DNA from: Citricoccus sp. CH26A
GTDB lineage: Bacteria; Actinomycetota; Actinomycetes; Actinomycetales; Micrococcaceae
DNA: 64,000 nucleotides
Direction of reading: 5' to 3'
Assembly (NCBI RefSeq): GCF_000224415.1
Contig: NZ_AFXQ01000009.1
Coordinates: forward strand, 1 to 64,000
Below the pieces are notes generated by a model. That model was not told the DNA's origin. It did not search any database and worked only from the letters and a program-made list of their open reading frames with translations. The first letter of the stretch is position 1. Each line of letters begins with the position of its first letter. Positions 46,269 through 64,000 of the stretch are shown one piece after another. Position numbers and translations under genes: made by a program.

Positions 46269-46718
46269 ATGCTCGCACCTCGGGAGACGACCATGACTGA
46301 TACCCACGAGACGACCATGACCGACCGTCTGGCGATCGAGAAGCTGCTCAATACCTACTCCCTGGCCTATGACAGCCGGGACCTGGAGACGATGGAATCC
46401 TGTTTCACCGCCGACGCCGTCTTCAGCATGCGGATCGCTGGGCAGGAGCCCGTGTCCTTCGAGGGCCGGGACAGCATCATGAAGCTGATGACCGACTCGA
46501 TGGCGGTGCAGACCGACCAGCGTCGCCACATCAACTCCAACCTCCTGGTGTCCGAGGAGGACGGGGTGGTCCGCACGACGAGCTACCTCACGCTGGTCGC
46601 CACGGAGGGTGACCAGATCCGGTTGCTCAGTGCCGGGGTGTACCGGAACGAGATCGTCGAGGACGGTGGAGCCCTGCGGCTCCGCAGGCTCCACCTGGAC
46701 CTGGACAAGGCCTACTGA
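46269..46718 (+). CDS. SnoaL-like/NTF2-fold protein (1)
   Basis: A 149-residue protein with LAIEKLLNTYSLAYDSRDLETMESCFTADAVFSM split over two strands, and the pattern IRLLSAGVYRNEIV at the end. This fits the SnoaL_4 type NTF2 fold used by bile-acid dehydratases, scytalone dehydratase and limonene-epoxide hydrolases. AGGAG lies six bases before ATG 46269; ATG 46293 and 46317 are alternatives, within a short repeat of GAGACGACCATGAC. It is the first gene of the plus-strand catabolic operon, 32 bases ahead of the CoA ligase. A dehydratase, isomerase or hydrolase role is inferred. Confidence 0.75.
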   Translation: MLAPRETTMTDTHETTMTDRLAIEKLLNTYSLAYDSRDLETMESCFTADAVFSMRIAGQEPVSFEGRDSIMKLMTDSMAVQTDQRRHINSNLLVSEEDGVVRTTSYLTLVATEGDQIRLLSAGVYRNEIVEDGGALRLRRLHLDLDKAY

Positions 46719-46750
46719 GCCACGCCGGAATCCCAGGAGAGGAGACCGTA

Positions 46751-48307
46751 GTGACCAACCAAGGACTGATCCCGGCCAAGTGGGCGGCGCTGACGCCTGA
46801 CGCGCAGGCCGTGTATGACGTGCCCCATGACCGCAGGATCAACTGGGCCGACCTGGACTCGATGGTGCGGCGGCTGGCGAATGGACTACTCGGGTTGGGG
46901 TTGCAGCCCGGGGACCGGGTGGCCATGCTCTCCAAGAACAGCGTCGAGTACCAGGCCCTGTACTTCGCGGCCGGTCGTGCCGGCCTGGTGACACAGCCGC
47001 TGAACTGGCGGTTGGCCTCGGCTGCCCTCGCGGAGATCGTGCAGGACGCATCCCCGAAGGCAGTCATTGTCTCCGATGAGTTCCTTGACGTGTCCCGTGA
47101 CCTGCAGCGAACCCTTGACATCTCGCACTGGTTCGAGTTCGGAGCCGGGGGCGACGGGAGCCTTGAACGCCTGGTCGAGGGTTCCTCCGACGACGAGCCG
47201 GAGATCACCTCCCGGGTCGGTGAGGACGATCCCTTCTTCATCCTCTACACCGGGGGTACGACGGGGAAGTCCAAGGGCGCCCTGCATACCCATCGCAGCG
47301 CGGCGGCCGGGATGTTGAACCAGACCGTGGCGGAGCGGATCGTCCCGAGTGATGTCTACATGCTCACGGGGCAGATGTACCACATCCCCATCATCCTCTC
47401 GATGAATTACATGAAGCACGGATGCCCCCTGGTCCTGGTGAACTTCGAGGCGCAGCAGGCGCTGGAGATCATCGAGGCGGAGAACGTGTCGGCGTTCTTG
47501 GGGATCACCACGATGCTCAACTGGATGATGGCTGTGGAGGGATTCGGGCAGTACGACCTCAGCAGCCTCCGCAACATCCAGTACGGTGGCGGGCCGATGC
47601 CGTCGTCGATCGTCCGCCAGGCCCTGGACTCGTTCCCCTGCACCCTGATCCAGGGATACGGGCAGACCGAGGGGACCACGATGTGCTTCCTCTCGCAGGA
47701 GGACCACGCGAATGCCGTCGCGGGGATACATCCGGAGCGACTGCGCTCCTGTGGCCGCGAGGGCTTCCTGACCTCTGTCCGGATCGTGGACGACCAGGGC
47801 CGCGAAGTGCCACGGGACGGCAAGACTCCGGGCGAGATCGTCGTCCGGTCGCAGGCGAACATGGTCGGCTACCTGAACCAACCCGAACTGACCGCCCAGA
47901 CCCTGCGCGATGGGTGGATGTGGACCGGGGACGTGGCCACCTGGGACCAGGACCGATACGTCTACATCGTCGACCGCGCCAAGGACATGATCATCTCCGG
48001 GGGCGAGAACATCTTCAGCGTCCAGGTCGAGGAGGCGATCGCCAGCCATCCCGCTGTCCTGGAGTGCGCCGTCATCGGCGTTCCGGATGAGGAATGGGGC
48101 GAGTCGGCCAAGGGGTTCGTCGTGCTCAAGCCCGGGCAGCAGGCGACCGAACAGGAGATCATCGACCAGGCCAAGACCCAGCTGGCCAGCTACCAGAAAC
48201 CCCGTTCGGTGGAGTTCGTGCCGCAGTTGCCCAAGGCGCCCACGGGCAAGATCCTGAAGCGGGATCTCCGGGCGCCCTACTGGGAGGAGCTGGAACGGCG
48301 TGTCTGA
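46751..48307 (+). CDS. Acyl-CoA ligase (ANL superfamily, FadD-like)
   Basis: A 518-residue AMP-forming CoA ligase. Its P-loop motif is ILYTGGTTGKSKGALHTH (about 168-185). The A5-type motif GYGQTEGTTMCFLS, A7 MWTGDVATW, A8 YIVDRAKDMIISGGENI and A10 lysine in KAPTGKILKRDL are all visible. It should activate the pathway acid to its CoA thioester; the acid is not indicated. It starts with GTG and ends overlapping the next gene by eight bases. The following genes are hydratases and a thioesterase, all translationally coupled. Confidence 0.9.
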   Translation: MTNQGLIPAKWAALTPDAQAVYDVPHDRRINWADLDSMVRRLANGLLGLGLQPGDRVAMLSKNSVEYQALYFAAGRAGLVTQPLNWRLASAALAEIVQDASPKAVIVSDEFLDVSRDLQRTLDISHWFEFGAGGDGSLERLVEGSSDDEPEITSRVGEDDPFFILYTGGTTGKSKGALHTHRSAAAGMLNQTVAERIVPSDVYMLTGQMYHIPIILSMNYMKHGCPLVLVNFEAQQALEIIEAENVSAFLGITTMLNWMMAVEGFGQYDLSSLRNIQYGGGPMPSSIVRQALDSFPCTLIQGYGQTEGTTMCFLSQEDHANAVAGIHPERLRSCGREGFLTSVRIVDDQGREVPRDGKTPGEIVVRSQANMVGYLNQPELTAQTLRDGWMWTGDVATWDQDRYVYIVDRAKDMIISGGENIFSVQVEEAIASHPAVLECAVIGVPDEEWGESAKGFVVLKPGQQATEQEIIDQAKTQLASYQKPRSVEFVPQLPKAPTGKILKRDLRAPYWEELERRV

Positions 48308-48740
48308 GACGGCTCCCGCGCACCTGGCGCTCGTCGGACGCGCGTTCCCCGGAGGCCAGTACACCCTCGAGCCGTGGCGGGCCTGGCTGCTCACGGACGC
48401 GCTAGGGGATGACACGGGGGACACCCAGCCCCACCCGGTCATGGCGTGGATGGCCGCCGTCGGGGGCATGGGCATCACGTGGGACGAGTTGTTCGCCTGG
48501 TTCGATGCCACGGCGGACGACGGGCCCATGCTCGGTGAACACCAGACCACCCTGCACGCGCCGCTGCGATCCGGGGTGACGTACCGCGTGAGCGGGAAGG
48601 TCACCTCGGTGGACCGCAAGACGGGCCGCCGGGCCGGCACCTTTGACATCGTCGGCTACGAGCTGTATCTCCATGACGGACAGGAACACGTGGCCACCTG
48701 CTGGAACTCGCTGGTGCTGCCGAGGAGGCTCGCGACATGA
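48300..48740 (+). CDS. FAS1-like dehydratase (MaoC N-terminal-domain type)
   Basis: A 146-residue hotdog protein related to the N-terminal half of MaoC/FAS1-like dehydratases (HPVMAWMAAVGGMG, LHAPLRSGVTYRVSGKVTSVDR). It lacks the catalytic Asp/His dyad pattern seen in its neighbour, as expected for the non-catalytic half of a split hydratase. It starts GTG inside the ligase gene and its stop overlaps the MaoC gene start (ATGA). The pair likely forms a heterodimeric enoyl-CoA hydratase. Confidence 0.75.
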   Translation: MSETAPAHLALVGRAFPGGQYTLEPWRAWLLTDALGDDTGDTQPHPVMAWMAAVGGMGITWDELFAWFDATADDGPMLGEHQTTLHAPLRSGVTYRVSGKVTSVDRKTGRRAGTFDIVGYELYLHDGQEHVATCWNSLVLPRRLAT

Positions 48741-49204
48741 ACGTCACCGTGGGGAGTCCGCTGCCCGTCCACGAGGTGCGCGTGGACCCCGGGCCCATGA
48801 AGACCATGGCGGCACTGCTCGGTGATCCCAATCCGATCCACTGGGACACCCGAGCCGTCGCCGAACTGGGCCTGGGCGAGCGTCCGGTGAACCAGGGGCC
48901 GCTCAACATGGGGTACCTCATGACGATGCTGGCGCGCTGGGCCGGGGGCCGCGATCGGGTCCTCGACTTCCGGGTGCGGTTCCTCGGGAACGTTCTCGCC
49001 GGAGATCGGGTCCGCGCCGAAGGCACCGTGACGGGACTGCGCGTCACGGGTGCAGGCCGGATCGCCGACTGCGAGGTGGTCCTGAAGGTCATCGGCGGGG
49101 ACACGGTCCTGGCCGGGACGGCCAGTGTCCTGGTCGAGCCCCTGGGCCCGGGCGACCACACCATGACGCCAGAAGCGGTCCACCAGACAGGGAGAGAACG
49201 ATGA
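48737..49204 (+). CDS. MaoC-family dehydratase (R-hydratase type)
   Basis: A 155-residue hotdog hydratase. The hydratase 2 motif LLGDPNPIHWDTRAVAELGL provides the catalytic Asp/His pair (D-x-N-P-I-H), and VNQGPLNMGYLM follows. It adds water to an enoyl-CoA, giving a 3-hydroxyacyl-CoA. It is start-stop overlapped on both sides. With the preceding protein it makes up a double-hotdog unit like the split hydratases of steroid side-chain breakdown. Confidence 0.85.
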   Translation: MNVTVGSPLPVHEVRVDPGPMKTMAALLGDPNPIHWDTRAVAELGLGERPVNQGPLNMGYLMTMLARWAGGRDRVLDFRVRFLGNVLAGDRVRAEGTVTGLRVTGAGRIADCEVVLKVIGGDTVLAGTASVLVEPLGPGDHTMTPEAVHQTGRER

Positions 49205-49647
49205 CGATGACGGATACCAGCTCACGGCTGGACTTCCAACTGTCCTACGGCGACTGCGATGCCGTGGGCATCGCCTACTTCGCCATCTACTACCGCTGGA
49301 TGGAACGTGCCTACACCTCATGGCTCTATGCCCAGGGCATCCGCAGTGGTGAGATGCAGGAGCAACTCGGTGTGGTCACGGTGGGCATCAGCTCAGGCGC
49401 CCGTTACCTGTCCACCGCGCAGGTCTTCGACCATCTCACGTGCCAAGTGGTGCTCGACCGGCTGGGCGAGTCCTCGTATCGGGTCGGGTACGAGTTCATC
49501 CGGGACGGAGAACTGGTCACCCGCGGCCAGATGAGCTACGCCTGCCGAGACGCCACGGACTTCTCCAAGACGCCCCTTCCGGGCCGGTTGCGCGAGACAC
49601 TCAATCTGCTGCCCGCCCCGTCGTTCGACATCGACCTGGGAGGCTGA
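49201..49647 (+). CDS. Acyl-CoA thioesterase (4HBT family)
   Basis: A 148-residue hotdog thioesterase starting with the 4HBT motif FQLSYGDCDAVGIAYFAIYYRWMERA (shown in part), with Asp and the D-x-x-G pattern of 4-hydroxybenzoyl-CoA thioesterase. It could release a free acid from a CoA intermediate or rescue trapped CoA. ATG overlaps the MaoC stop. The presence of a thioesterase inside an operon that begins with a CoA ligase is typical of CoA-recycling pathways. Confidence 0.85.
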   Translation: MTMTDTSSRLDFQLSYGDCDAVGIAYFAIYYRWMERAYTSWLYAQGIRSGEMQEQLGVVTVGISSGARYLSTAQVFDHLTCQVVLDRLGESSYRVGYEFIRDGELVTRGQMSYACRDATDFSKTPLPGRLRETLNLLPAPSFDIDLGG

Positions 49648-49648
49648 G

Positions 49649-50245
49649 GTGGAAGCAGAGAGCCCCTTGGCCGCGCTGATCGGCCGGCAGAGTCGAGTGC
49701 CCGATGTCGTCGACACGGAGTCCCTGCGCGAGGTGGTCCGCGGCTTGCTGGATCGCGAGGCGATCCGCGACCTGGTGATGCTCTACGCCCGGGCCGTGGA
49801 CGATCACGACATCGATGCCGTCGTCGGTACCTTCACCACCGACGGGGTCTTCGACCGGCGGGGTGACGAGGCGGTCGGACACGAGGAGATCCGCGCAGCC
49901 TTCCTGTCCGCCATGCATACCTACCAGGCGATGCTGCATACCCCCGAGGCCCATGTCGTCACGCTCACGGGCCCGGAGGAGGCGGTCGGCTGGGCGAGTG
50001 GCCACGCCGAGCTGGTGACGCGGCGGACGACCATCATCGCCGCCTATCGCTACGACGACGCCTACGTCCGTGAGGACGGGCGCTGGCGGTTCTCCCGTCG
50101 TCGGGTGCAGTTCATGTACGCCGTCCCGGCCGACGAACACGGTCCCGGGCTGGTCGGTCCGGACCGCATGCGGTGGCCCGGCCTGGAGCCCGCTCCCGCG
50201 GATTACCCGGAGGGCATCGAAACCTGGGCCGCGTCCCGGCGATGA
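49649..50245 (+). CDS. SnoaL-like/NTF2-fold protein (2)
   Basis: A 198-residue second SnoaL_4-type protein. It has LLDREAIRDLVMLYARAVDDHD, then DAVVGTFTTDGVFDRRG and HEEIRAAFLSAM, a common NTF2 beginning, and the end RRVQFMYAVPADEHG. GTG 49649 starts one base after the previous stop. It is the last gene of the plus-strand operon and shows weak likeness to the first SnoaL-like protein. Two NTF2-fold enzymes in one operon suggest two dehydration or isomerisation steps. Confidence 0.75.
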   Translation: MEAESPLAALIGRQSRVPDVVDTESLREVVRGLLDREAIRDLVMLYARAVDDHDIDAVVGTFTTDGVFDRRGDEAVGHEEIRAAFLSAMHTYQAMLHTPEAHVVTLTGPEEAVGWASGHAELVTRRTTIIAAYRYDDAYVREDGRWRFSRRRVQFMYAVPADEHGPGLVGPDRMRWPGLEPAPADYPEGIETWAASRR

Positions 50246-50281
50246 CCCGGCCGGCGGCGATCCGCTCGGGGGTGACCCGCC

Positions 50282-50326
50282 CGGACTGGCAACCCACGCA
50301 GCCTGTTCGAAGGCGAGGTTCCAGTC
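50282..50326. terminator. Weak inverted repeat between convergent operons
   Basis: GGACTGGCAACC pairs with GGTTCCAGTCC with one bulged base. It lies in the 114-bp gap between the SnoaL and SDR genes. Confidence 0.35.
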
Positions 50327-50359
50327 CTCACCCCCGCATGGGGCCTCACTGCATATTGT

Positions 50360-51169
50360 CTAGGCGCTCACCACTTCCTTCTGGCCGCGCCACGCGAGCT
50401 GCCCGCCGTCGGCCAGCCAGACGGCACCGGTCACGAATGAGGACAGGGGACTGGCAAGGAACATCGTGACGTTGGCGATGTCCTGCGGCTGGCCCAAGCG
50501 ACCGGCCAGGTGGCTGGCCGCCATGTGGCGGGCAGCGAGCTCGGGGTCGCCCTGCGCCTCCAGGTAGTCCTTCGTCATCTGGGTCTCCGTGGTTGCCGGG
50601 CAGATCGCATTCACCCGGATCGCGTCGTCGGACAGCTCGAGCGCGAGGTTCTTCGTCAGCAGGGCGACCGCCCCCTTGGAGGCACCGTAGGCGAGGGTGT
50701 GCGGAAAGGCGGAGATGGATCCCACCGAGCCGACGTTGACGATGGCGGCACGGTCGCTCTTCTTGAGGTGCGGGTAGGCGGCACGGCACAGCAGGAACAT
50801 CGCCTTGACATTAATGTCGAAGACGCGGTCCCAAACCTCGATCGGCAGCTCGTCGATGGCCAGCTTGTCGGTCAGCATCGCATCGGCCACGCCGGCGTTG
50901 TTGAACAGGACGTCGATGCCTCCGAAGACCTCGACGGTCTCGGCGACGAGCCGTTCGATGGCCAGGGGATCGGTCAGGTCGCACTCCACGTAGACCGCCT
51001 CACCGCCCGCCGACGTCAAGTCCGAGACCGTCGCCTCGGCAGCAGTGCTGTTGATATCTGCGATGACGACACGGCACCCTGCCTCGATGGCGAGCCTGGC
51101 CGTGGTCGCTCCGATGCCGCCTGCCCCTCCGGTGATGATCATGACCGCGCCATCAAGCTGATAGTCCAT
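50360..51169 (-). CDS. Short-chain dehydrogenase/reductase (1)
   Basis: A 269-residue SDR. The cofactor motif is ITGGAGGIGATTARLA, with Asp in VVIADINS pointing to NAD(H). NNAG is present, and the catalytic Ser/Tyr/Lys appear in VGSVGSIS and YGASKGAVALL. It likely oxidises a hydroxyacyl or alicyclic alcohol. The ATG at 51169 follows GGGAG. A second, broken copy of part of this gene lies immediately upstream (51243-51395). Confidence 0.88.
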   Translation of the reverse strand: MDYQLDGAVMIITGGAGGIGATTARLAIEAGCRVVIADINSTAAEATVSDLTSAGGEAVYVECDLTDPLAIERLVAETVEVFGGIDVLFNNAGVADAMLTDKLAIDELPIEVWDRVFDINVKAMFLLCRAAYPHLKKSDRAAIVNVGSVGSISAFPHTLAYGASKGAVALLTKNLALELSDDAIRVNAICPATTETQMTKDYLEAQGDPELAARHMAASHLAGRLGQPQDIANVTMFLASPLSSFVTGAVWLADGGQLAWRGQKEVVSA

Positions 51170-51206
51170 GAAACGCTCCCTTGCCCCGTGCCAGTTGATG
51201 CGACGA

Positions 51207-51241
51207 ACGTAACAAATACGTGCGAATGATGGCAATCATTC
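51207..51241. promoter_or_regulatory. Two adjacent palindromes upstream of SDR
   Basis: ACGTA-acaaa-TACGT (51207-51221) and GAATGAT-ggca-ATCATTC (51224-51241), both perfect. They sit 38-72 bases before the SDR start and are AT-rich compared with surroundings. They could be operator sites for a TetR-like or other dimeric regulator. Confidence 0.55.
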
Positions 51242-51242
51242 A

Positions 51243-51395
51243 CGGCCGCTGCGCCAGGCGGTCGCGCGTCATCTGGGCTCCGCGGTCGCCGGGCGCCCGC
51301 ATTCACCCGGGTCGCGTCATCCGAGAGCTTGAGCGTGAGGTTCCTCCCCAGCAGGAGCCCGGCGCCCTTGGAGACCGGAGCCCAGAGCGTGGGAC
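51243..51395 (-). pseudogene. Truncated duplicate of the SDR gene
   Basis: This stretch aligns with 50552-50700 of the SDR gene, with mismatches and small gaps. Shared parts are CGTCATCTGG, ATTCACCCGG and the segment coding LTLKLSDDATRVNA (intact copy: LALELSDDAIRVNA) preceded by VSKGAGLLL (intact: ASKGAVALL). The frame breaks after VNA. It is a remnant of a duplication, possibly from a recombination event with another SDR. Confidence 0.75.
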
Positions 51396-51401
51396 AGTCG
51401 A

Positions 51402-51435
51402 GCGAGGGGGACACGCACAGGGGTGTCCCCCTCGC
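51402..51435 (-). terminator. Hairpin terminator after the Zn-ADH
   Basis: 13-bp perfect stem GCGAGGGGGACAC with an 8-base loop, just beyond the ADH stop on the minus strand. Confidence 0.7.
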
Positions 51436-51447
51436 CGAGCGTGGAGG

Positions 51448-52548
51448 TCAGTCGAAGGTGATGACCGCTCGGGCCACCTTGCCGCCCTCGAGCTCCTTGT
51501 ACGCCTCGTTGATCTCCTCGAGCCTGATGCGCTTCGAGACGAGGTCGTCCAGGTTCAGGCGTCCCTGGACGTAGAGGTCGGCGTACATCGGGATGTCGAT
51601 CTGCGGATTGGTGGATCCCATGAAGACGCCCTTGACGGACTTCCGCTTCATGAGGACGTCGTGGTAGAGCGCCAGGTCGAGCGTGCTTTCCGGCTGCTGC
51701 ATGCCCACCACGTAGGCGGTGCCGTCCATCCCGAGGATCTCGAAAGCCTGCCTCATGGTCGCCAGCACGCCGATCATCTCGAAGGCGTGGTGCACCCCGT
51801 AGCCACCGGTGATCTCCATGACCCGCTCGATGACGTCATCGTCCTTCGGGTTGATGGTGTCGGTTGCGCCGAACTTCCGGGCCAGCTCGAGCTTTTCGGG
51901 CTGTAGGTCGATGGCGATGATCCGGCGGGCTCCGGCGATCTTGGCGCCCTGCACGCCGTTGAGGCCCACGCCGCCGCAACCGAAGACCGCCACGTAGTCG
52001 CCGGGGCGGACACCCGCGGTATTGATGGCGGTGCCGATGCCCGTGACCACGCCGCAGCCGAGGAGGCAGGCTCGGTCGAAGGGAATCTCCTTGTTGATCT
52101 TGACGAGGTTGTTCTCGTGCGAAAGCGCCTGTTCGGCGAACCCTGCCAGACCCATGAACTGGGTAATCGGACTACCGTCCTCGGCGGCAATCCTCTGGGT
52201 GTCGTCCGCGTCGCGGGCGGTGGAGGTGTTCTGGTTGAGGCAACGGAACGGGGCGCCCTTCATGCACTCGCCGCAGCTCCCGCAGAAGCTGACCAGGGAT
52301 CCGGTCACATGGTCGCCCACAGCCAGGCCAGTGACGTCCGGTCCGACCTCGCGGACGATTCCGGCGATCTCGTGCCCGAGGACGGTCGGCATGGGAAAGC
52401 CGAAGTCGTGAGAGCGGATGTGCTCGTCGGAGTGGCAGAGGCCGCTGGCCTTGATGTCGACCAGGACCTCCTGTCCCTTAGGGGCATCGAGCTTGACGTC
52501 GCGGATCTCGTACTTGCCGCCGACTCTGTCCAGGACTGCAGCCTTCAT
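51448..52548 (-). CDS. Zinc-dependent alcohol dehydrogenase (class III/NDMA type)
   Basis: A 366-residue medium-chain dehydrogenase. Catalytic Zn ligands lie in ASGLCHSDEH and GHEIAG; four structural Cys lie in SFCGSCGECMKGAPFRC. The NAD fold is GCGGVGLNGVQGAKIAGARRI with Asp in IAIDLQ. ATG 52548 is preceded by GGAGA; the frame runs on to 52695 over the promoter. It is probably a separate transcription unit with its own strong promoter. It could oxidise the pathway alcohol or detoxify an aldehyde. Confidence 0.88.
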   Translation of the reverse strand: MKAAVLDRVGGKYEIRDVKLDAPKGQEVLVDIKASGLCHSDEHIRSHDFGFPMPTVLGHEIAGIVREVGPDVTGLAVGDHVTGSLVSFCGSCGECMKGAPFRCLNQNTSTARDADDTQRIAAEDGSPITQFMGLAGFAEQALSHENNLVKINKEIPFDRACLLGCGVVTGIGTAINTAGVRPGDYVAVFGCGGVGLNGVQGAKIAGARRIIAIDLQPEKLELARKFGATDTINPKDDDVIERVMEITGGYGVHHAFEMIGVLATMRQAFEILGMDGTAYVVGMQQPESTLDLALYHDVLMKRKSVKGVFMGSTNPQIDIPMYADLYVQGRLNLDDLVSKRIRLEEINEAYKELEGGKVARAVITFD

Positions 52549-54107: not shown

Positions 54108-54174
54108 TTCTCGTTTCCGTTCTCTCTCCAGTCCGAACCTCGGTTGCGTCACCGGGTAGGTGGCGGGCCAGCCG

Positions 54175-55419: not shown

Positions 55420-55464
55420 GTCATCTCCAGGGATGGGTGGTCGTGGTCTGCCGAGACGGGGGCG

Positions 55465-56238: not shown

Positions 56239-56263
56239 TGCCACTCGATTCCACGGTCACCGC

Positions 56264-57277: not shown

Positions 57278-57281
57278 GGGA

Positions 57282-59453
57282 TCACTCCTTGTGGAACGGG
57301 TCGAGGACGAGGGCGGCGTCGACGATGGAGGCGCCGCCTCCCGGTGTGCAGGAGACGACGACGGGGTTCAGATCGGCCTGCGTGATCCAGTCGGCACCGG
57401 CGAACAGGACGGAGAAGTCCACGATGAGCTGGGTCAGGGCCTCACGGTCATGGGTGGTTCCGCGATGGCCGCGCAGTACGCGGTCGATGGCGAGCCCGTC
57501 GAGCGCGGCACCGGCCTCCTCGGCCGAGACGGGGCACTGGCGGAACGCCACGTCATCGAGCAGCTCCGCGAGCACCCCTCCGGCCCCGACCATGATCAGG
57601 GGGCCGAACCGCGGGTCGCGTACGCCGCCGATGATCACCTCGAGGCCCCGGTGAAGCTCGGAGAGCAGCACGCCCTCGGGGTTCAGTTGGTTCTCGTCGA
57701 CGATGCCCGTGAAATCGTGGATCGCCTGTTCGAGTTCAGCCTGATCGCGCAGGCCGACCCGGACCAGACCCAGGTCGGACTTGTGGATGACGCCGGTGCA
57801 GAGTTGCTTGGCGACCAGCGGAAAGCCGATCTGCTGGGCCTTCTCGACGGCGTCGGCCGGGTCCATGGACAGGACCTCCCGGGCGACGGGCAGCCCGTGC
57901 TGCCGCAGGAACTCCTTGGCCTCATGCTCACCGGGCTCGTTCGCCAGCCCTGCCGGGCGGGAGACCGACAGCACCTCCGGGCGGGCGGTGTCCTCCACCA
58001 CGGTGCCCCGCAGGACGGACCAGCGGTGCAGGCCGGCCAGGGCGGTCAGCGCCGCGTCGACCGAACCGAAGGCCGGCGCCCCGCCGGCCCGCATGATCTG
58101 CTCACTGCGGCCTGTCAGGTTCTCGGCCGTCCAGGCCGAGACCACCGTGGGCTTGGTGCTGGCTTTCGCCGCGGAGATGAATCCGGGCAGCAGTCGCTCG
58201 GCGTCGTGGGCCCCCCAGGTGGGGATGGCGTACAGCACCATGTCGAACTCGTCGGCGCGCTCGAGCTCGCCCAGGACGGTGCCGAGGAACTCGGAGTTGC
58301 CGATCACCTGGCCGGTGAGGTCGAAGGGGTTGCTGGGTGTCCCGAAACGCATGTCCCGGGACAGCGCCTCGACGGTGCCGGCGGACAGGGGCGCAACGTC
58401 GAGTCCGAGCTCGCTGGCCCGGTCGGCGGCGTAGCTGCACTCGCCGCCGGACGGTGAGACGATGAGAAGGCGGCCTGACGCCGGCGGGTCCATGCGCGAC
58501 ATCAGTCCGGCGGTGTCGATGAGGGCGTCCACGGAGTCGACCTCGAGGACACCGAGCTGGGCCATGACATCGCGGAAGACCGCGTAGGAGCCGGCCAGCG
58601 CGCCGGTGTGGCTGAGCGAGCTGCGCTGCCCGGCGTCCGAACGGCCGACCTTCAGGACCAGGACGGGCTTGCCCGCCCGATGGGCCTTGGCCACGGCGGC
58701 CCGGAACGCCGAGACGTCGCGTAGGTCTTCGACGAACAGGGCGATCACCCGGGTGGGTCCGTCATCGGCCAGCGCCTCGACGAGTTCGGCGACATCGATG
58801 TCCCCCTCGTTGCCGACACTGACGAACCCGCGCACGCCGATGCCGCGTCCCTGGGCACGGTTGAACAGGTTCACGGCCATTCCGCCGCTCTGGCTGACGA
58901 TGCTGATGCCACCGGGGGTGTGGGCGTCGGTGATGTTGAGCGTCGGACAGGGCACCACGTTGTCCACGACGCTGACGGCACCGATGCAGTTCGGCCCGAT
59001 CAGCCGGCTGCCCCCTGCCCGGGCCACGTGGACGAGATCCTGCTGGGCTTCCCTGCCGGCCGGACCGTCCTCGGCGAAGCCGGCCGAGCACACGGTGATG
59101 ACCTTGACCCCGGCCTCCACGCAGTCGCGGACGGCCTGCTGCACCAGATCACTGCGCACCAGGATCATCGCGGCATCCACCGGCCGGCCGATGTGGCGCA
59201 CCGTGGGATAGCACGTCAGGCCGTTGATCTCGGTGTGCCGCGGGTTGACCGGGTAGACCGCCCCTGCATAACCGGTCCGCAGAAGATTGGTCAGGCTGCG
59301 GGACGAGTAACCGTCCGGGTTGGCAGAGGCTCCGACCAAGGCGATGGAGCGAGGGGCGAACACCGCGCCGAGGTCCACGGACGGACCTTCCGGGGCGATG
59401 CCGCTGGCGGTTCCATCGGGGGACTCGACAGTGATCGATACGGGGGTGCTCAT
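57282..59453 (-). CDS. NDP-forming acyl-CoA synthetase (acetate-CoA ligase family)
   Basis: A 723-residue single-chain enzyme. It has a CoA-binding domain (FAPRSIALVGASANPDGYSS, about 29-48), succinyl-CoA-ligase-like domains, a phosphohistidine motif SLSHTGALAGSYAVF and an ATP-grasp domain in the last ~230 residues (HGLPVAREVLSMDPADAVEK). Such enzymes use ADP/ATP rather than AMP chemistry. It joins an AMP-forming ligase in the same island, so two kinds of CoA activation are present. ATG overlaps the OYE gene stop (ATGA). Confidence 0.88.
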   Translation of the reverse strand: MSTPVSITVESPDGTASGIAPEGPSVDLGAVFAPRSIALVGASANPDGYSSRSLTNLLRTGYAGAVYPVNPRHTEINGLTCYPTVRHIGRPVDAAMILVRSDLVQQAVRDCVEAGVKVITVCSAGFAEDGPAGREAQQDLVHVARAGGSRLIGPNCIGAVSVVDNVVPCPTLNITDAHTPGGISIVSQSGGMAVNLFNRAQGRGIGVRGFVSVGNEGDIDVAELVEALADDGPTRVIALFVEDLRDVSAFRAAVAKAHRAGKPVLVLKVGRSDAGQRSSLSHTGALAGSYAVFRDVMAQLGVLEVDSVDALIDTAGLMSRMDPPASGRLLIVSPSGGECSYAADRASELGLDVAPLSAGTVEALSRDMRFGTPSNPFDLTGQVIGNSEFLGTVLGELERADEFDMVLYAIPTWGAHDAERLLPGFISAAKASTKPTVVSAWTAENLTGRSEQIMRAGGAPAFGSVDAALTALAGLHRWSVLRGTVVEDTARPEVLSVSRPAGLANEPGEHEAKEFLRQHGLPVAREVLSMDPADAVEKAQQIGFPLVAKQLCTGVIHKSDLGLVRVGLRDQAELEQAIHDFTGIVDENQLNPEGVLLSELHRGLEVIIGGVRDPRFGPLIMVGAGGVLAELLDDVAFRQCPVSAEEAGAALDGLAIDRVLRGHRGTTHDREALTQLIVDFSVLFAGADWITQADLNPVVVSCTPGGGASIVDAALVLDPFHKE

Positions 59454-61495
59454 GGCCTGCTCCCGGGGGCGGTGAGCACGGCCGTCGCCGACGACGTCCG
59501 GCCCTGCTCCTGCAGGATCTTGGCCAGCGCATAGGCCTGACGGGTGGCGAAGACAAGTCGGCGCGGTGCGTAGGCGTCCCCGAGCAGGTGGACGTCACCG
59601 TGCAGCTCGCGCAACTCCTCGAACAGCCCGCTCTCGGAGACACCGCCACAGGCCAGGACCACGGAGTCGACGCCCGTCAGGCGGTCCTCGACGCCGGAGT
59701 AGACGTTGCGTGTGGTGGCGGACCCGCCGCCGACCGCGACGACCTCCTCCATGCAGCGGATCGTAACCCCTTGCGCGCTGAGCCGACCCAGGATCCCGCC
59801 GATGATGTAGCGACCCAGCAACTGGCCCGGGCCGTTCGTGCCGTAGACCACCGTGACGTCATGCCCCCGGGAGCTCAGGTGGTCGGCCACGGCGAGGGGC
59901 GGCATGTGGTCGTCCTGGGCCACGACGACGACCCGGCGGCCGGGGACGGCGGCGCCCGAGAGCACGTCCCTGATCTCAAGCACGTCCTGGCCCTCGACGC
60001 CCGCAATGTCCGGACGGCGCGCCGAGGCGCCCGTGGCGACGGCGACCGTGTCGGCGTTCTCGGCAAGCACCCCTTCCACCGTGGCGGTGTGGTCGAGGCG
60101 GACCCGGACCCCGGCCTCTGCCAGGCGCCTCCGCTGCCATTCGAGGTACTGGTCGAACCGCTCATGACAGGGCGCGGCAGCGGCGATCCTCAACTGGCCG
60201 CCCAGGGCGTCCGCGGCCTCCCACAACTCGACCCGGTGACCGCTCTCGGCCGCGAGGGCGGCCAGTTCCATGCCGGCCGGGCCGCCACCGACCACGAGCA
60301 GGCGCCGCGGGGCGGCGGCTCGCTGCCAGGGCCCCTCCAGTTCCTGGCTCGTGTGGGGGTTGACCGCGCATCCGAACGGCAACCCGTCCACGTAGCGGCG
60401 GCTGATGCACTCATTGCCGCCGACGCACGGACGGATCGCCTCGGTGCGTCCCTGGGCCGCCTTGGTGAGCAGTTGACCGTCGGCGATGTGCGCCCGGGCC
60501 ATGCCGACGACGTCGGCCTCGCCGGCAGCCAGGATCCGTTCCGCGATCTCCGGGGAGCTGACGAGCCCGGTATGGACGATGGGCAGGCGGACCGTGCGCT
60601 TGAGTTCGCCCGACAGGCCCGCCCATTGGCCGGCGTCGTAGAAGTGGGGCTGGATGTAGCTGGGGTTGCCCCATGGCGTGCCGACGACCGCATGGATGAA
60701 GTCGATGAGTCCTGTGGACTCGAGGTAGGCGGCGATCTCGCGACCGCCTGTGGCGTCGTAACCACCGGGGACGTCCTCCACGAGGTTGAGCCGCACGCCC
60801 ACGGCCATCGAGTCGCCCACGGCGTCGCGGATGGCGGTCAGTACCTCGACGACGAACCGGGCCCGGTTCTCCAGGGAGCCGCCGTAGGCGTCCTGGCGCT
60901 GGTTCGTCAGCGGGGAGAGGAACCACTGGAGCATGTCGTCGTGGTTGGCATGGAGTTCGATGCCGTCCAGTCCGGCACGTCGGGCCTGTTCCGCCGAGAA
61001 CCGGTACTCCTCGACGAACCACGCGATCTCACGGGTTGTCAGCACGTGCGGCAGGGCGTTGCCGACCGGTGCGCTGAGCCGGGCGGACGGCGCGTGGGGG
61101 AATCCGCCGATCATGGTCATCTGGCAGGTGACCACGGCGCCGGCCGCGTGCAGGGTGTCCGTGACCCAGCGGACTCGGTCCACGAAGTAGGGCAGCCGGA
61201 AGTATCCCTTGGTCTCGGCGCTGATGCCCGATGGCTCGAAACCGGGGATGAACTGGTTCTGGATCCTTCCGGTGACCCCGCCGATCCACGCCACACCGGC
61301 CTTGGCCCGGGACTCGAGGTAGGCGATGGTCCGGGCGGCGTCCCTGTCGTCCGCGCTCCAGAGGTTGCCGATCGCCGAGTTGTGCGGAGGCATCATGACG
61401 CGATTGCGAAGGCGCATCGGTCCCAGCATCGTGCTGGTGAACAGGTGCGGGAACGCATGTCCCGGCACGCTTTCCAATTCGTGCTCATGATCCAT
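59450..61495 (-). CDS. OYE-type FMN/FAD reductase (2,4-dienoyl-CoA reductase/BaiCD-like)
   Basis: A 681-residue fusion with an OYE-type TIM barrel (about 10-370; DGIELHANHDDMLQWFLSPL, RQDAYGGSLENRARF) and an FAD/NADH domain (RRLLVVGGGPAGMELAALAAES from about 405). Fe-S cysteines are found in CVGGNECISRR and FGCAVNP, so only three of the four ligands in the classic C-x2-C-x3-C-x11-C motif are plain; the second looks changed to Gly. It probably reduces a C=C bond of an enoyl- or dienoyl-CoA or enone. It is the first gene of the minus-strand operon. ATG 61495 is chosen; GGAGA lies 13 bases upstream. Confidence 0.85.
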   Translation of the reverse strand: MDHEHELESVPGHAFPHLFTSTMLGPMRLRNRVMMPPHNSAIGNLWSADDRDAARTIAYLESRAKAGVAWIGGVTGRIQNQFIPGFEPSGISAETKGYFRLPYFVDRVRWVTDTLHAAGAVVTCQMTMIGGFPHAPSARLSAPVGNALPHVLTTREIAWFVEEYRFSAEQARRAGLDGIELHANHDDMLQWFLSPLTNQRQDAYGGSLENRARFVVEVLTAIRDAVGDSMAVGVRLNLVEDVPGGYDATGGREIAAYLESTGLIDFIHAVVGTPWGNPSYIQPHFYDAGQWAGLSGELKRTVRLPIVHTGLVSSPEIAERILAAGEADVVGMARAHIADGQLLTKAAQGRTEAIRPCVGGNECISRRYVDGLPFGCAVNPHTSQELEGPWQRAAAPRRLLVVGGGPAGMELAALAAESGHRVELWEAADALGGQLRIAAAAPCHERFDQYLEWQRRRLAEAGVRVRLDHTATVEGVLAENADTVAVATGASARRPDIAGVEGQDVLEIRDVLSGAAVPGRRVVVVAQDDHMPPLAVADHLSSRGHDVTVVYGTNGPGQLLGRYIIGGILGRLSAQGVTIRCMEEVVAVGGGSATTRNVYSGVEDRLTGVDSVVLACGGVSESGLFEELRELHGDVHLLGDAYAPRRLVFATRQAYALAKILQEQGRTSSATAVLTAPGSRP

Positions 61496-61500
61496 ATAAT
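61471..61500 (+). promoter_or_regulatory. Candidate plus-strand promoter over the OYE start codon
   Basis: TTTCCA (61471-61476), 18-base spacer, perfect TATAAT (61495-61500). It reads toward the enoyl-CoA hydratase gene and overlaps the OYE ATG, so the two transcripts would interfere. Confidence 0.5.
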
Positions 61501-61677
61501 TAAGGTAGTTCTCCGGTGGGAACGGGTCAAGGCGAATGGCGCCGGGTCGTGGCTCCGCGGTGTGCGGTCGGCCGCCGACACCCACGCGTGCCCGCCGGGT
61601 GCATAGAGTCGTCCTGGCCGGTGAGGCGGTGAACGGCCATCGGCTTCGGGGCGAGAACCTAAGAGTTGGGAGTGGAC

Positions 61678-62463
61678 ATGTCTTCAGTTGGTGTGACTGT
61701 CGAGCAGGAGGCCGGGGTCGTCCGGATCCGGCTCGAGCGCCCGGAACGGCGCAATGCCTACGACATCGAGATGGCCCGGGCCATGATCGACGGCCTCCAG
61801 GCCGCCTCGCGCGCTGAGGCCGTGGTGATCACCGGCAGTGGCGGGTCGTTCTGCGCGGGAGGTGCCCTGGGGCAGCTCAGCGATCCCGACCCGGAGGAAC
61901 TCCGCGACCTGTTCACCACATCGTTGCGACTGGTCGACGCCATCCGCGCCTGTCCTCGCCCCGTCATCGCCGCCGTCGACGGCCCTGCTGCCGGTGGCGG
62001 GAACGAGCTGGTCATCGCCTGCGACTTCGCGATCGCGACCAGCCGCTCGACGTTCGGCCAGACCGGTCCCAAGGTCGGCTCGGCCCCGGTGCTTGGAGCC
62101 ACTAATCTCGCCTCCGTCCAGATCGGTGAGAAGCGGGCCAAGGAGATGTCCTTGATGTGCCGTCGCTACAGCGCGGAGCAGGCCCTGGCGATGGGCCTGA
62201 TCAACGAGGTGGTGGCCGATGGCCAGCTTGATGAGGCGGTGAACCGCTGGCTCGCTGAGATCCACCAGCTCAGCCCGCGATACCTGGAGATCGCCAAGGT
62301 GAGCTCGAACCTGTGGTGGAACGCCTCGAAGGACAACATGCAGGCGGGCCTGGAGACGCTCATCCAGGCCATCGGGAGCGATGACATGCGAGAGGGGAGT
62401 CGGGCCTTCATGGAGAAGCGCAAGCCCAGGTTCCGGGACACGCCTCGGCCGGCGTCCTCGTGA
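61678..62463 (+). CDS. MenB/BadI-type enoyl-CoA hydratase-isomerase (crotonase) family protein
   Basis: A 261-residue crotonase-fold protein. The oxyanion region is CAGGALGQLSD-like and AAGGGNELVIACDFAIA, and the hallmark FGQTGPKVGS follows, as in naphthoyl-CoA synthase (MenB) and 2-ketocyclohexanecarboxyl-CoA hydrolase (BadI). C-terminal MCRRYSAEQALAMGLINEVV agrees with this group. It may open or close a carbon ring rather than hydrate a chain. ATG 61678 follows GGGAG; TTG 61666 is possible. No other men gene is near, so a menaquinone role is less likely. Confidence 0.82.
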   Translation: MSSVGVTVEQEAGVVRIRLERPERRNAYDIEMARAMIDGLQAASRAEAVVITGSGGSFCAGGALGQLSDPDPEELRDLFTTSLRLVDAIRACPRPVIAAVDGPAAGGGNELVIACDFAIATSRSTFGQTGPKVGSAPVLGATNLASVQIGEKRAKEMSLMCRRYSAEQALAMGLINEVVADGQLDEAVNRWLAEIHQLSPRYLEIAKVSSNLWWNASKDNMQAGLETLIQAIGSDDMREGSRAFMEKRKPRFRDTPRPASS

Positions 62464-62511
62464 CCAGGGCAGGCACCCTGACCTGAGGCTGGCCGGCTGA
62501 GGGAAGGGGGC

Positions 62512-62540
62512 TTCTCGTTCGCCGGCCTATCTAGTATAAT
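62512..62540 (+). promoter_or_regulatory. Promoter of acyl-CoA dehydrogenase (2)
   Basis: TTCTCG (weak -35) 17 bases before a perfect TATAAT (62535-62540). The region is AT-rich compared with the neighbourhood. GACA...TGTC arms (62547-62565) follow the -10 box and could be an operator. Confidence 0.5.
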
Positions 62541-62644
62541 GAATAAGACAGACATAACGATTGTCGGCCCGAGCGGATCCTGCTGCAGAGCGCAGCGACG
62601 CTCCGGCTACGTGAACGAATTCAATGCAATTGGAGGTGGGGGCC

Positions 62645-63805
62645 GTGACGGTTTCCGTTGTTGATGAGCATGCTGAGATCCGGGACCTGGCCGCCCAAGT
62701 GGCCCGAGAGGTCTACGCGCCGATGGCCGAGGAGCTGGATGTCACCAGGACCCCGATCTCCCTGGCCGAGCGGAAACGCCTGGGCGACCTGGGCTTTCTG
62801 GGGATCGCGCACTCGGAGAAGTACGGCGGCGCCGGGGCCCCGCTGTCGCAGGCGCTCGCCGTGATCGAGGAGTTCGCCAAGGTCTGCCGGCCGGCTGCGT
62901 TCCAGATCTTCGAGTCGAACACGGGGCCCGCCCAGGTCATCCATCACCTGGGCACGGAGGAGCAGCGTGAGCGGCTCCTGCCAGACATCATCACCGGTGA
63001 CAAGACCATGGCCGTGGCCATTTCCGAGCCCGACGCTGGCTCCGCGGCGACCGACGCCCGGACGACGGCCCGCCCCGTGGGCGACGGCTATGTGGTGAAC
63101 GGGAACAAGCGTTGGATCTCCAACGGCGGCGAGGCCGATCACTACCTGGTGTACGCGCGCCTCTCGGACGCTCCCGGGGCGAAGGGGATCGGGGCCATCG
63201 TCGTCGACAAGACGATGCCGGGGGTCAGCTTCGGGGCCTCCGAGCGGCTCATGGGCTTCCGCGGGATCCCGTCCGCGGACGTCATCTTCGATGACGTGTT
63301 GGTCCCGAAGGAGAACGTCGTCGTCCCCGCGGGTGAGTTCAGCTCGCTGTTCGGGGCCTTCTCGATCGAGCGCATGGGGAATGCGACCATGTCGCTCGCC
63401 ATCGGCCAGGCAGCGCTGGACAAGACGCTGTCGTACGTGCAGGAGCGGCAGCAGTTCGGCAAGGACCTCATCGAGTTCCAGTCGATGCAGATGATGGTGG
63501 CGGACATGGTGCTGCAGGTCGAGGCTGCACGGTTGCTCGTCGAGCGGGCAGCCGGCAGCGTGAAGGACGGCATCCCGAACCCGCTGCAGGTCTCCTTGGC
63601 CAAGTGCACCGCCAACGAGATGGCGAAGAAGGTCACCGACCTGGCCATCCAGGCGCACGGCGGCAATGGGTACACCGAGGAGTACGGCCTGGAGCGGCTG
63701 CACCGCGACGCCCACGGCTGGGCGATCGCCGGCGGCACCCCCTCGATGCAGCGTATCCGCATCGTCTCCGAGGTCCTCGGGCGTCGATTCGACCAGCGCG
63801 GCTGA
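62645..63805 (+). CDS. Acyl-CoA dehydrogenase (2)
   Basis: A 386-residue flavoprotein. Family stretches are VAISEPDAGSAATDART, NKRWISNGGEADHYLV, VQERQQFGKDLIEFQSMQ and IQAHGGNGYTEEYGLERLHRDA near the end. GTG 62645 is chosen because GGAGGTG stands seven bases upstream; the ATG at 62624 would place that site inside the gene. It oxidises an acyl-CoA, perhaps a cyclic one. A hairpin and a third acyl-CoA dehydrogenase-like start follow it. Confidence 0.9.
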   Translation: MTVSVVDEHAEIRDLAAQVAREVYAPMAEELDVTRTPISLAERKRLGDLGFLGIAHSEKYGGAGAPLSQALAVIEEFAKVCRPAAFQIFESNTGPAQVIHHLGTEEQRERLLPDIITGDKTMAVAISEPDAGSAATDARTTARPVGDGYVVNGNKRWISNGGEADHYLVYARLSDAPGAKGIGAIVVDKTMPGVSFGASERLMGFRGIPSADVIFDDVLVPKENVVVPAGEFSSLFGAFSIERMGNATMSLAIGQAALDKTLSYVQERQQFGKDLIEFQSMQMMVADMVLQVEAARLLVERAAGSVKDGIPNPLQVSLAKCTANEMAKKVTDLAIQAHGGNGYTEEYGLERLHRDAHGWAIAGGTPSMQRIRIVSEVLGRRFDQRG

Positions 63806-63809
63806 CGGT

Positions 63810-63837
63810 TCCGTCCGGGGCGTGAGCCCCGGACGGA
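63810..63837 (+). terminator. Hairpin after the acyl-CoA dehydrogenase gene
   Basis: Perfect 12-bp stem TCCGTCCGGGGC with a GTGA loop, no T-run. Confidence 0.55.
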
Positions 63838-63912
63838 GCCCGGTCCTCAGGGGCCGTATCTTCTGTATCAAGACGTAGGCGAGATTCGATGAGCGGGAAA
63901 GCGGGATGTGCA

Positions 63913-64000
63913 GTGAGCGTTGACCTTCAAGACGTGACCGGTGTGGAGTCGGTCGGCGGGCTGTTCGACCTGAGCGGGGCCCACCAAGAGATCCAGCGGC
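63913..64000 (+). CDS. Probable third acyl-CoA dehydrogenase, N-terminal fragment cut by window end
   Basis: Only 29 codons are visible: VSVDLQDVTGVESVGGLFD then LSGAHQEIQR. This resembles the flexible start and first helix (x-x-LSxxHxEIxR) of acyl-CoA dehydrogenases. GTG 63913 is preceded by GGGA-rich sequence; the in-frame ATG at 63889 is an alternative. Its position after another acyl-CoA dehydrogenase supports the guess, but it is a guess. Confidence 0.4.
   Translation, partial: MSVDLQDVTGVESVGGLFDLSGAHQEIQR

Follow-up and report, generated by a model that had tools for sequence, protein, structure and literature searches.

The cyclohexanecarboxylate (chc) pathway of Sinomonas comprises a P450 together with ChcB, ChcC1 and ChcC2, and the npd genes of picrate and dinitrophenol catabolism include an F420 reductase of the NpdG type. 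Picrate and dinitrophenol catabolism in Rhodococcus, Nocardia and Nocardioides relies on F420H2 and a reductase of the LLM/LLHT class, the hydride transferase Fht (PMC8498797), and beyond nitroaromatics little is known of the role of F420 in these actinobacteria (PMC8498797). Here we describe a 70.9-kb genomic island of Citricoccus sp. CH26A at 45,962-116,820 of its contig, of which 45,962..64,000, roughly the left quarter of the block, falls within the window (the whole 64,000-nucleotide stretch analysed, which ends at position 64,000). With the picrate/dinitrophenol system the island would share actinobacterial catabolism by F420H2 and an LLM/LLHT-class reductase, whereas it lacks nitroaromatic genes, is CoA-dependent and carries a complete F420 biosynthesis set into a family mostly without F420. 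A P450, an SDR and ring-desaturating KstD-like flavoproteins are common to the island and the chc pathway, but the island proteins miss all Chc equivalog cut-offs (463/1000 and 228/350), CoA enzymes are many and there is no evidence of aromatisation. The RipABC (Ict-Ich-Ccl) itaconate/methylsuccinate module has counterparts in a RipB/Ich-like MaoC protein, a RipC/Ccl-like CitE protein, a CaiB-type transferase and an acyl-CoA dehydrogenase (ACAD), although these all score under the equivalog cut-offs (124/340 and 125/375 bits), the island adds an aldehyde dehydrogenase, and its CaiB protein presumably belongs to a CoA-transferase family other than that of the RipABC transferase.

Related clusters, unassigned and of partial gene content, lie on the Rhodococcus megaplasmids pRWAY01 and pRZP2 and on Paracoccus pPAN2. 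The Rhodococcus clusters share with the island an amidohydrolase, an ACAD, a thiolase, an SDR/crotonase pair, a FadR regulator and, on pRWAY01, a Baeyer-Villiger monooxygenase (BVMO), and the Paracoccus cluster shares the OYE/ABC transporter/MaoC pair; the stretches compared in all three hold no F420 genes. The consulted passages of the WAY2 genome paper assign no substrate (PMC7276702). The initial annotation had rightly described a catabolic cluster that depends on CoA and has no assigned substrate, and no homologous cluster that is characterised or assigned to a named substrate was found in the literature searched.

An inserted island shared with two other genera

In blastn comparisons, homology to the same-genus genome G119 ends at 45,961 and restarts at 116,821. 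The flanks adjoin in four same-genus genomes (G119, G060, G102 and G034), with ~5-7 kb between flanking genes that lie 77 kb apart here; because they stand side by side at this empty site, we conclude that the island is an insertion. The gene composition of the part seen would permit an ordinary chromosomal fatty- or branched-acid beta-oxidation region native to the genus, but this reading is hardly credible in view of the empty site, the absence of the region from all seven same-genus genomes sampled (0/7) and its lower GC content, which at 68.3% against 71.4% in the left flank (right flank, 68.5%) makes the composition deviant only modestly. No integrase was present among the scanned island genes, no tRNA target was found at the island ends, and direct repeats (att) at these ends did not rise above chance. 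A near-DNA search against plasmids returned short conserved patches only, and a scan of the genome contigs with the OYE protein gave a sole, irrelevant match. On this comparative evidence the 70.9-kb region is almost certainly a horizontally acquired catabolic island.

The conserved gene order for which the initial annotation suggested a search does exist: two further genera of the family (G085 and G030) have the main block of 47 called genes, with gene order essentially unchanged. Orthologs at >=55% identity were found for 47/47 genes in G085 and 46/47 in G030 (median identities of 82% and 81%), a degree of conservation that rules out chance, and the block sits there at non-homologous chromosomal places, the right-flank gene lying on other contigs. 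Carriers of the island number 3/149 in the family and 1/396 in the order sample, the latter being the source genome of the window, and six more distant actinobacterial genomes carry the same catabolic core. The block shared with G085 and G030 has the thiolase as its leftmost gene, and most of the left arm (46,134-52,695) has no conserved counterpart in the other carriers. Gene junctions are short or overlapping, with -8, -4, -4 and +1 bases across 46,751-50,245 and -4 to +67 bases across 61,585-52,911, and fit operons.

Gene content of the window

The 16 complete genes and the one cut by the edge that had been annotated are all present, the former between 46,134 and 63,805 (Table 1), and their naming was mostly correct, with families confirmed by Pfam/NCBIfam profiles and two ACADs, or three with the cut gene. 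Substrate-level identity was judged by NCBIfam equivalog cut-offs; none of the scanned catabolic enzymes reached one, so statements on substrate rest on fold-level similarity.

Table 1. Genes of the island in the window, with the gene cut by its right edge
Feature	Coordinates	Strand	Evidence
SnoaL-like protein	46134..46718	+	PF13577 66 bits; likely start 46,269 from Met positions
AMP-forming acyl-CoA ligase, left arm	46751..48307	+	PF00501 258 bits
FAS1_DH-region-like half of likely split MaoC hydratase	48300..48740	+	PF13452 17.1 bits, below cut-off
MaoC hydratase half	48737..49204	+	PF01575 48.5 bits; hydratase-2 motif GDPNPIH
4HBT thioesterase (YbgC-like)	49201..49647	+	PF13279 47.9 bits; YGDCDAVGI
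SnoaL-like protein	49649..50245	+	PF13577 86 bits
SDR oxidoreductase	50360..51235	-	PF13561 214 bits; TGGAGGIG, YGASK
Zn-dependent alcohol dehydrogenase	51448..52695	-	TIGR03989 349/440 bits; structural Zn motif
Thiolase	52911..54107 (ORF open to 54,239)	-	PF00108 306 bits; NRLCGSG, GHP, CIGGG
Acyl-CoA dehydrogenase, IYEG catalytic Glu	54175..55419	-	81-86% orthologs in G085/G030
SDR oxidoreductase	55465..56244	-	Family profiles and orthologs in G085/G030
LLM-class oxidoreductase, putatively F420-dependent	56264..57277	-	TIGR03619 134/167 bits
NDP-forming acyl-CoA synthetase	57282..59453	-	PF13549, PF13607, PF13380
OYE/FadH-like two-domain reductase	59450..61585	-	Oxidored_FMN + Pyr_redox_2; best PDB 1ps9 253 bits
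Crotonase, MenB/BadI-like by similarity	61666..62463	+	badI 171/468 bits; best in PDB MenB
Acyl-CoA dehydrogenase without C-terminal catalytic Glu (IAGG)	62624..63805	+	Family profile, motif
Acyl-CoA dehydrogenase, IYEG	63,889-65,088		Partner of ACAD 62624..63805; cut by window edge

Both SnoaL-like genes belong to the SnoaL_4 family. The left-arm ligase has no ortholog among the conserved-block ligases and matches the island ligases of G085 and G030 at 30%, and the alcohol dehydrogenase has the NDMA-dependent ADH as its closest family, at a score below cut-off. Orthologs in G085/G030 stand at 78-80% for the thiolase and 85-88% for the LLM enzyme, which also has 71% orthologs in G986/G1030, and the NDP-forming synthetase combines CoA_binding_2, Succ_CoA_lig and ATP-grasp_5 domains. 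The ACAD pair at the window edge, with one catalytic Glu between its two members, is kept in seven genomes. As annotated at the outset, the two adjoining hydratase genes are likely to encode a split FAS1/MaoC enzyme, although only the MaoC half is recognised by its motif; the FAS1 half falls short of its cut-off of 22 bits, and its single-sequence AlphaFold model, at pLDDT 43, is uninformative. Orthologs of the FAS1 half (59-62%) lie within the cluster of G085 and G030.

The crotonase is most similar to BadI/MenB models, and its GGGNEL and FGQTGPKVGSAP are kept in seven genomes. We rejected its identity as BadI (2-ketocyclohexanecarboxyl-CoA hydrolase), since it scores about one third of the cut-off (TIGR03210, 170.8/467.6 bits) and its residues argue against it, and also as MenB (149/343 bits), since GSAP replaces GSFD in seven orthologs. 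The MenB-type active-site Asp is thus a Pro, whereas the crotonase Glu144-type residue is retained, and BadI ring opening is ruled out by score and residues as proof of a ring substrate. Alignment of the OYE with 1ps9 and orthologs showed Gly in place of the second Fe-S cysteine and Asp in place of Tyr166; its Fe-S motif reads CVGGNEC in six actinobacterial orthologs and CIGCNDC in Paracoccus. Identification as the 2,4-dienoyl-CoA reductase FadH, which has a four-Cys Fe-S motif and the catalytic Tyr, was therefore dismissed. Mycofactocin dependence, considered because of the OYE, GMC and ADH matches, was likewise rejected, as the MftC radical SAM protein is absent from the genome and the markers stay below cut-off (best MftC 75/265, OYE 445/793, MftG-like GMC 364/387 and ADH 349/440 bits). 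The ring-containing acid originally proposed as substrate is still plausible, but its basis in the BadI/OYE/SnoaL combination fails, because the SnoaL domains are uninformative, the OYE lacks one Fe-S cysteine and the crotonase is not BadI.

Genes to the right of the window and the nature of the substrate

The part seen holds no transporter or regulator, as had been stated, but following the contig rightward located both, in the form of a branched-chain-type ABC transporter and GntR-type regulators. A P450-ferredoxin-reductase system, two 3-ketosteroid-dehydrogenase (KstD)-like flavoproteins and a BVMO with an esterase lie there too; of these, the flavoproteins, the P450cin/CYP142-like P450 and the BVMO with its esterase would furnish better evidence for a ring. 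The P450 is closest to P450cin/CYP142 (CYP142, 178-179 bits). The BVMO is of type I, with the FxGxxxHxxxW(P/D) fingerprint FTGEVYHTGEWP and Rossmann motifs GAGFSG and GTGSSG, and scores 678 bits to PAMO and 617 bits to steroid monooxygenase. KstD families are the best matches of the KstD-like protein at 66,774, and the second such protein (95,618-97,285) is closest to ChcC1 (4-oxocyclohexanecarboxylate 2-dehydrogenase, 463/1000 bits).

A steroid or bile acid could be degraded by such a CYP142/CYP125-like P450, KstD-like dehydrogenases, BVMO and heteromeric ACAD pair, and the CYP142 and steroid monooxygenase scores, the top matches of the protein at 66,774 and the single catalytic Glu of the ACAD pair agree with this. 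All steroid equivalogs are nevertheless far under cut-off (KstD 253/789, steroid-24-oyl-CoA synthetase 249/750 and thiolase 244/515 bits), the KstD-like protein at 95,618-97,285 is nearer ChcC1, and a ring-cleavage oxygenase for steroids was not recognised in the island, leaving a steroid pathway improbable. Methyl ketones are typical substrates of BVMOs of the PAMO/steroid-monooxygenase type found here, which would suit a phytohormone or flavour compound of apocarotenoid type (abscisic acid/ionone class) with a trimethyl-cyclohexenone and a methyl-ketone stage, as would the KstD/ChcC1-like and OYE enzymes for the cyclohexenone. Rhodococcus P1Y turns abscisic acid into the methyl ketone dehydrovomifoliol by an uncharacterised route (PMC7996341), but known abscisic-acid degraders provide no gene-level link to the cluster, and we view a substrate of this class as quite doubtful.

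An itaconate-type hydratase/lyase pair, the RipB/Ich-like MaoC protein (83,800-84,273, +) and the RipC/Ccl-like CitE protein, forms one conserved block with the CaiB-type transferase and an ACAD. An 'ORF' at 83,847-84,053 (-), considered as a conserved non-coding RNA, proved on alignment to be the antisense of this MaoC gene, which had been missed, and an Rfam search found nothing.

Coenzyme F420 genes are linked to the catabolic block

The island encodes fbiA, fbiC, fbiD/cofC, cofE and the F420:NADPH reductase NpdG, with two luciferase-like (LLM) enzymes alongside, encoded at 56,264-57,277 and 78,333-79,391. Scores were 333 bits against a cut-off of 257 for FbiA/CofD (TIGR01819), 1467 against 1018 for FbiC/CofGH (PRK09234), 146 against 105 for FbiD/CofC (TIGR03552), 226 against 181 for CofE (TIGR01916) and 213.6 against 149.8 for NpdG (TIGR01915). 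FbiC occurs in 5/149 family genomes, all 3 island carriers included (Fisher p=1.9e-5). The insertion with its empty sites, the gene-for-gene block in two genera and this F420 co-occurrence and linkage are direct results of genome comparison.

We considered whether the F420 genes are a passenger of the acquired island, with LLM enzymes that depend on FMN and a linkage that arose because both inserted at one hotspot or because F420 serves some unrelated purpose. Both LLM enzymes score below the TIGR03619 F420-dependent subfamily cut-off (133.8 and 158.7 against 166.9 bits) and their best PDB matches are a mixture of FMN and F420 enzymes, so they could use FMN. A dehydro-F420 (DH-F420) reductase of the nitroreductase fold (FbiB/FbiE of the PEP route) was also not found, there being no PF00881 match in the 99.9% complete genome (controls, 14/14 found), and the CofE protein matches the N-terminal part of FbiB only, without its C-terminal domain. 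Against a passenger role, all three family carriers have NpdG within the catabolic block, where it sits between a crotonase and an SDR gene; the F420 genes next to the block follow one order in these three genomes, at different loci; and in the two other FbiC-positive family genomes the F420 genes likewise adjoin LLM genes. The presence of FbiC in 6/6 distant core carriers, a count confined to these carriers, points the same way as weak evidence; FbiC lies elsewhere in these genomes, unlinked to the cluster, which has neither the F420 kit nor NpdG. We consider passenger status unlikely. The F420 kit very probably belongs to the island, and there is a good likelihood that F420 serves at least one of the pathway's LLM enzymes. 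The lack of an encoded DH-F420 reductase means that the cofactor is possibly a variant, dehydro-F420 or 3PG-F420. Tentatively, and with just under an even chance, F420 biosynthesis and recharging entered F420-less hosts together with a CoA-based pathway that depends on F420 and acts on an alicyclic natural product, the cofactor perhaps being a variant.

Proposed pathway and implications

The gene families identified here favour, to a moderate degree, an acquired island for the breakdown of a ketone or acid that is alicyclic, methyl-branched and terpenoid-like, with its own F420 supply for one or two LLM steps. Taken separately, the alicyclic character of the substrate is rather likely and its terpenoid-like character more tentative. 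The substrate would enter through the branched-chain-type ABC transporter, be oxygenated by the P450-ferredoxin-reductase system and be oxidised further by ADH, GMC, ALDH and SDR enzymes. Ring desaturation and reduction may then involve the two KstD-like flavoproteins, the OYE and the F420H2-LLM enzymes, with F420 recharged by NpdG using electrons from NADPH, and the ring or side chain could be cleaved by the BVMO and esterase, by the MenB/BadI-like crotonase, or by both. Once the AMP- and NDP-forming ligases have attached CoA, beta-oxidation would fall to ACADs, MaoC, crotonases, SDRs and thiolases, and the methyl-branched remainder would be removed by the CaiB transferase, ACAD, RipB-Ich-like hydratase and RipC-Ccl-like lyase, a combination with precedent on methylsuccinate (PMC12290011).

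The region in the window is thus the left end of an island that probably allows the use of a ring-shaped, terpene-like compound and that brings genes for the rare cofactor F420, which close relatives do not have. It defines a set of 47 genes for a probably unassigned route of alicyclic degradation. With F420 synthesis packaged with one specific pathway and moved into hosts otherwise F420-less, the role of the cofactor becomes open to testing by gene removal, and the island shows that a cofactor and the pathway dependent on it can spread jointly.

The catabolic genes lie on a 70.9-kb insertion

On the source contig (121,046 bases, with the window as positions 1-64,000, from a 3.47-Mb genome that is 99.9% complete), the genes flanking the island stand 77 kb apart, compared with ~5-7 kb in four same-genus genomes. 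DNA alignment with one of these empty sites, that of G119, stops at 45,961 and restarts at 116,821 with 144 bases between, defining a 70.9-kb insertion (45,962-116,820) that adjoins a 79-codon ORF and the terminal part of a VOC-like gene. Because a single contig spans both junctions and the flanks are 85-90% identical to a relative, an assembly chimera is an unlikely origin. GC content drops from 71.4% on the left side of the island to 68.3% inside it. The island ends showed neither an integrase nor a tRNA target or direct repeat.

All 16 genes named by the initial annotation in its CoA-dependent catabolic set are present, in the families stated. Gene overlaps of 4-8 bases within 46,751-50,245 and the close spacing of minus-strand genes at 61,585-52,911 indicate probable operons in both places. 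The absence of transporter and regulator genes noted by the initial annotation holds for the part of the island inside the window but not for the island as a whole: the rightward extension proposed with it brought an ABC transporter, MFS proteins and GntR-type regulators (table). The interpretation was partly right and drawn too narrowly in extent. The two GntR/FadR-type regulators are close paralogs, their orthologs in G085 and G030 (island carriers of two other genera of the family) cross-matching at 73-75%, which suggests that there may be two linked regulons.

Island genes at and beyond the right edge of the window (contig positions; ACAD, acyl-CoA dehydrogenase; LLM, luciferase-like oxidoreductase)
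Feature	Position	Remark
ACAD	63,889	
Amidohydrolase (Amidohydrolase_2)	65,085-65,891	Rare; adjoins ACAD pair in most carriers; no PDB sequence match at 1e-6; candidate hydrolase, hydratase or decarboxylase
KstD-like flavoprotein	66,774	
Branched-chain-type ABC transporter	68,613-74,418	Two copies each of binding protein, permease and ATPase (one ATPase recognised by reading in frame, 71.7-72.5 kb)
SnoaL	74,460	
AMP ligase	74,872	
Crotonase	76,607	
SDR	77,530	
LLM	78,333	
AMP ligase	80,014	
ACAD	81,708	
CitE-like lyase	82,670	
MaoC (RipB-like)	83,800-84,273	Locus L012:300-773; easily overlooked, GC3-based caller favours spurious antisense ORF
ALDH	84,270	
SnoaL	86,025	
GMC	86,518	
SnoaL	88,097	
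ALDH	88,712	
P450	90,856	
HtaA-domain protein (heme-transport-associated)	92,192-92,812	Between P450 and its ferredoxin; kept in G085 and G030
Ferredoxin	92,868	
Ferredoxin reductase	93,194	
GntR/FadR-type regulator	94,519-95,292	
KstD/ChcC1-like	95,618	
MFS	97,398	
Crotonase	98,784	
F420:NADPH reductase NpdG	99,554	
SDR	100,245	
Thiolase	101,026	
SnoaL	102,323	
Second GntR/FadR-type regulator	103,092-103,835	
CaiB-type CoA-transferase	103,832	
SDR	105,161	
MFS	106,124	
cofE, fbiD, fbiC, fbiA	107,440-112,809	
Baeyer-Villiger monooxygenase (BVMO)	113,190	
Hormone-sensitive-lipase-type esterase	114,799	
GntR regulator	115,828	

Recurrence in other genomes

The island's FadH-like two-domain reductase (OYE, 59,450-61,585) occurs in three of 149 family genomes, each of a different genus (the window genome, G030 and G085), in 0/7 same-genus genomes and, among 396 genomes sampled from the order, only in the window's own. 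Gene order, a check suggested in the initial annotation, proved conserved: the block 52,911-106,000 recurs essentially gene for gene in G085 and G030, where 47/47 (median 82%) and 46/47 (median 81%) of the called block genes, respectively, match at ≥55% identity. The block sits at another chromosomal place in both, because the housekeeping gene of the right flank is on other contigs there. The left arm (46,134-52,695) departs from this pattern. Orthologs of its MaoC pair and thioesterase lie inside the G085/G030 block, between the SnoaL and ligase corresponding to 74,460 and 74,872, and these genes have therefore been relocated or replaced in the window genome; the remaining left-arm genes have no such ortholog within that block. 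The BVMO and esterase lie right of the F420 genes here and within the block in G085.

A smaller core, found in at least four other families of the class, comprises the ACAD pair with the amidohydrolase, thiolase/SDR/crotonase, ligase-ACAD-CitE-MaoC-ALDH-CaiB and the MenB/BadI-like crotonase. The ABC transporter and an LLM accompany it, as do the OYE, NDP-synthetase and P450 in some genomes, and parts of it are also carried on Rhodococcus megaplasmids and, more distantly, on a Paracoccus plasmid.

Family tests and proposed pathway

Assignment to BadI fails by score (171/468 bits), as does assignment to MenB (149/343 bits, Asp replaced by Pro). FadH was likewise rejected for the OYE: in six actinobacterial orthologs (window, G085, G030, G986, G1030 and G962) Gly stands in place of the second of the four Fe-S cysteines (motif CVGGNEC) and Asp in place of the catalytic Tyr166, whereas all four cysteines are retained in the Paracoccus pPAN2 homolog. 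No MftC of a mycofactocin system was found in the genome, and steroid catabolic equivalogs were not reached by score. These failures weaken the claim of membership, not that of similar chemistry.

In the pathway we propose, the ABC transporter would mediate uptake and the P450 (closest to P450cin, 182 bits, and CYP142, 179 bits), with its ferredoxin and reductase, oxygenation. Zn-ADH, GMC, SDR and ALDH enzymes would catalyze oxidation, and KstD-like proteins ketone-directed ring desaturation; the 95,618 protein is closest to ChcC1 (463 of 1000 bits) and, in the PDB, to 3-oxosteroid dehydrogenases. Reduction would fall to the OYE and F420H2-LLM enzymes, with NpdG recharging F420, and Baeyer-Villiger insertion to the BVMO (PAMO/steroid-monooxygenase type, fingerprint intact), the resulting ester being cleaved by the esterase. 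AMP- and NDP-forming ligases would provide CoA activation, and beta-oxidation would include the heteromeric-type ACAD pair, only one partner of which keeps the IYEG glutamate. A methyl-branched dicarboxylate would be finished by the RipB/Ich-like hydratase (124 bits) and RipC/Ccl-like lyase (125 bits), both under cut-off, together with an ACAD and the CaiB-type transferase, a set that would act as in the itaconate/methylsuccinate cluster, the precedent for this finish (PMC12290011). Taken together, the proposed steps point to a methyl-branched alicyclic, terpenoid-like substrate class; the ring-containing substrate favored by the initial annotation is retained, mainly on grounds located outside the window.

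The island is bundled with F420 genes

Unlike the catabolic enzymes, fbiA, fbiC, fbiD, cofE and npdG all score above curated equivalog cut-offs. FbiC is present in only five of 149 family genomes, in none of seven same-genus relatives and in all three island carriers (Fisher p=1.9e-5, which gauges linkage and not three independent events, as the carriers share one linked unit). In each carrier the F420 genes adjoin the island in identical order and NpdG is lodged between the block crotonase and SDR. Other-family core carriers have that crotonase and SDR adjacent, with no NpdG between them and no F420 genes nearby, and in 6/6 FbiC lies elsewhere in the genome (~2.2 Mb from the core in the closed genome G1030). 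The F420 kit thus appears to accompany the island in host families without F420 and to be omitted where hosts have it.

In G030 (C3:60812-63622, L024/L081) and G085 (C2:217151-218083, L080), the F420 module is separated from the island edge by a conserved ~310-aa gene that has no counterpart at that place in the window genome; G030 has an EtfB-like gene there as well.

F420 biosynthesis looks complete, from gene content, up to poly-glutamylated dehydro-F420. The DH-F420 reductase is the FbiB C-terminal domain or FbiE (PMC8498797). Because the island cofE is single-domain and no PF00881 (nitroreductase-family) protein was found in the 99.9% complete window genome (matches in 14/14 control genomes), there is no candidate in it for this PEP-route step. 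The cofactor made may be dehydro-F420; alternatively, the cell may follow a 3PG-type route or possess an unrelated reductase.

In the two other FbiC-positive family genomes (G096 C34, L082; G066 C3, L084), the F420 genes neighbor a different cluster that includes LLM-class genes along with hydantoinase-like and ABC-permease-like proteins; this cluster may be a second F420-dependent catabolic unit. F420-dependent picrate catabolism is already known. Horizontal transfer of F420 genes is also known (PMC8498797), and our search, which covered few subscription papers, found no report of F420 genes and a catabolic pathway packaged in one inserted island. What stands out is that a transferable catabolic island comes bundled with its own F420 system.
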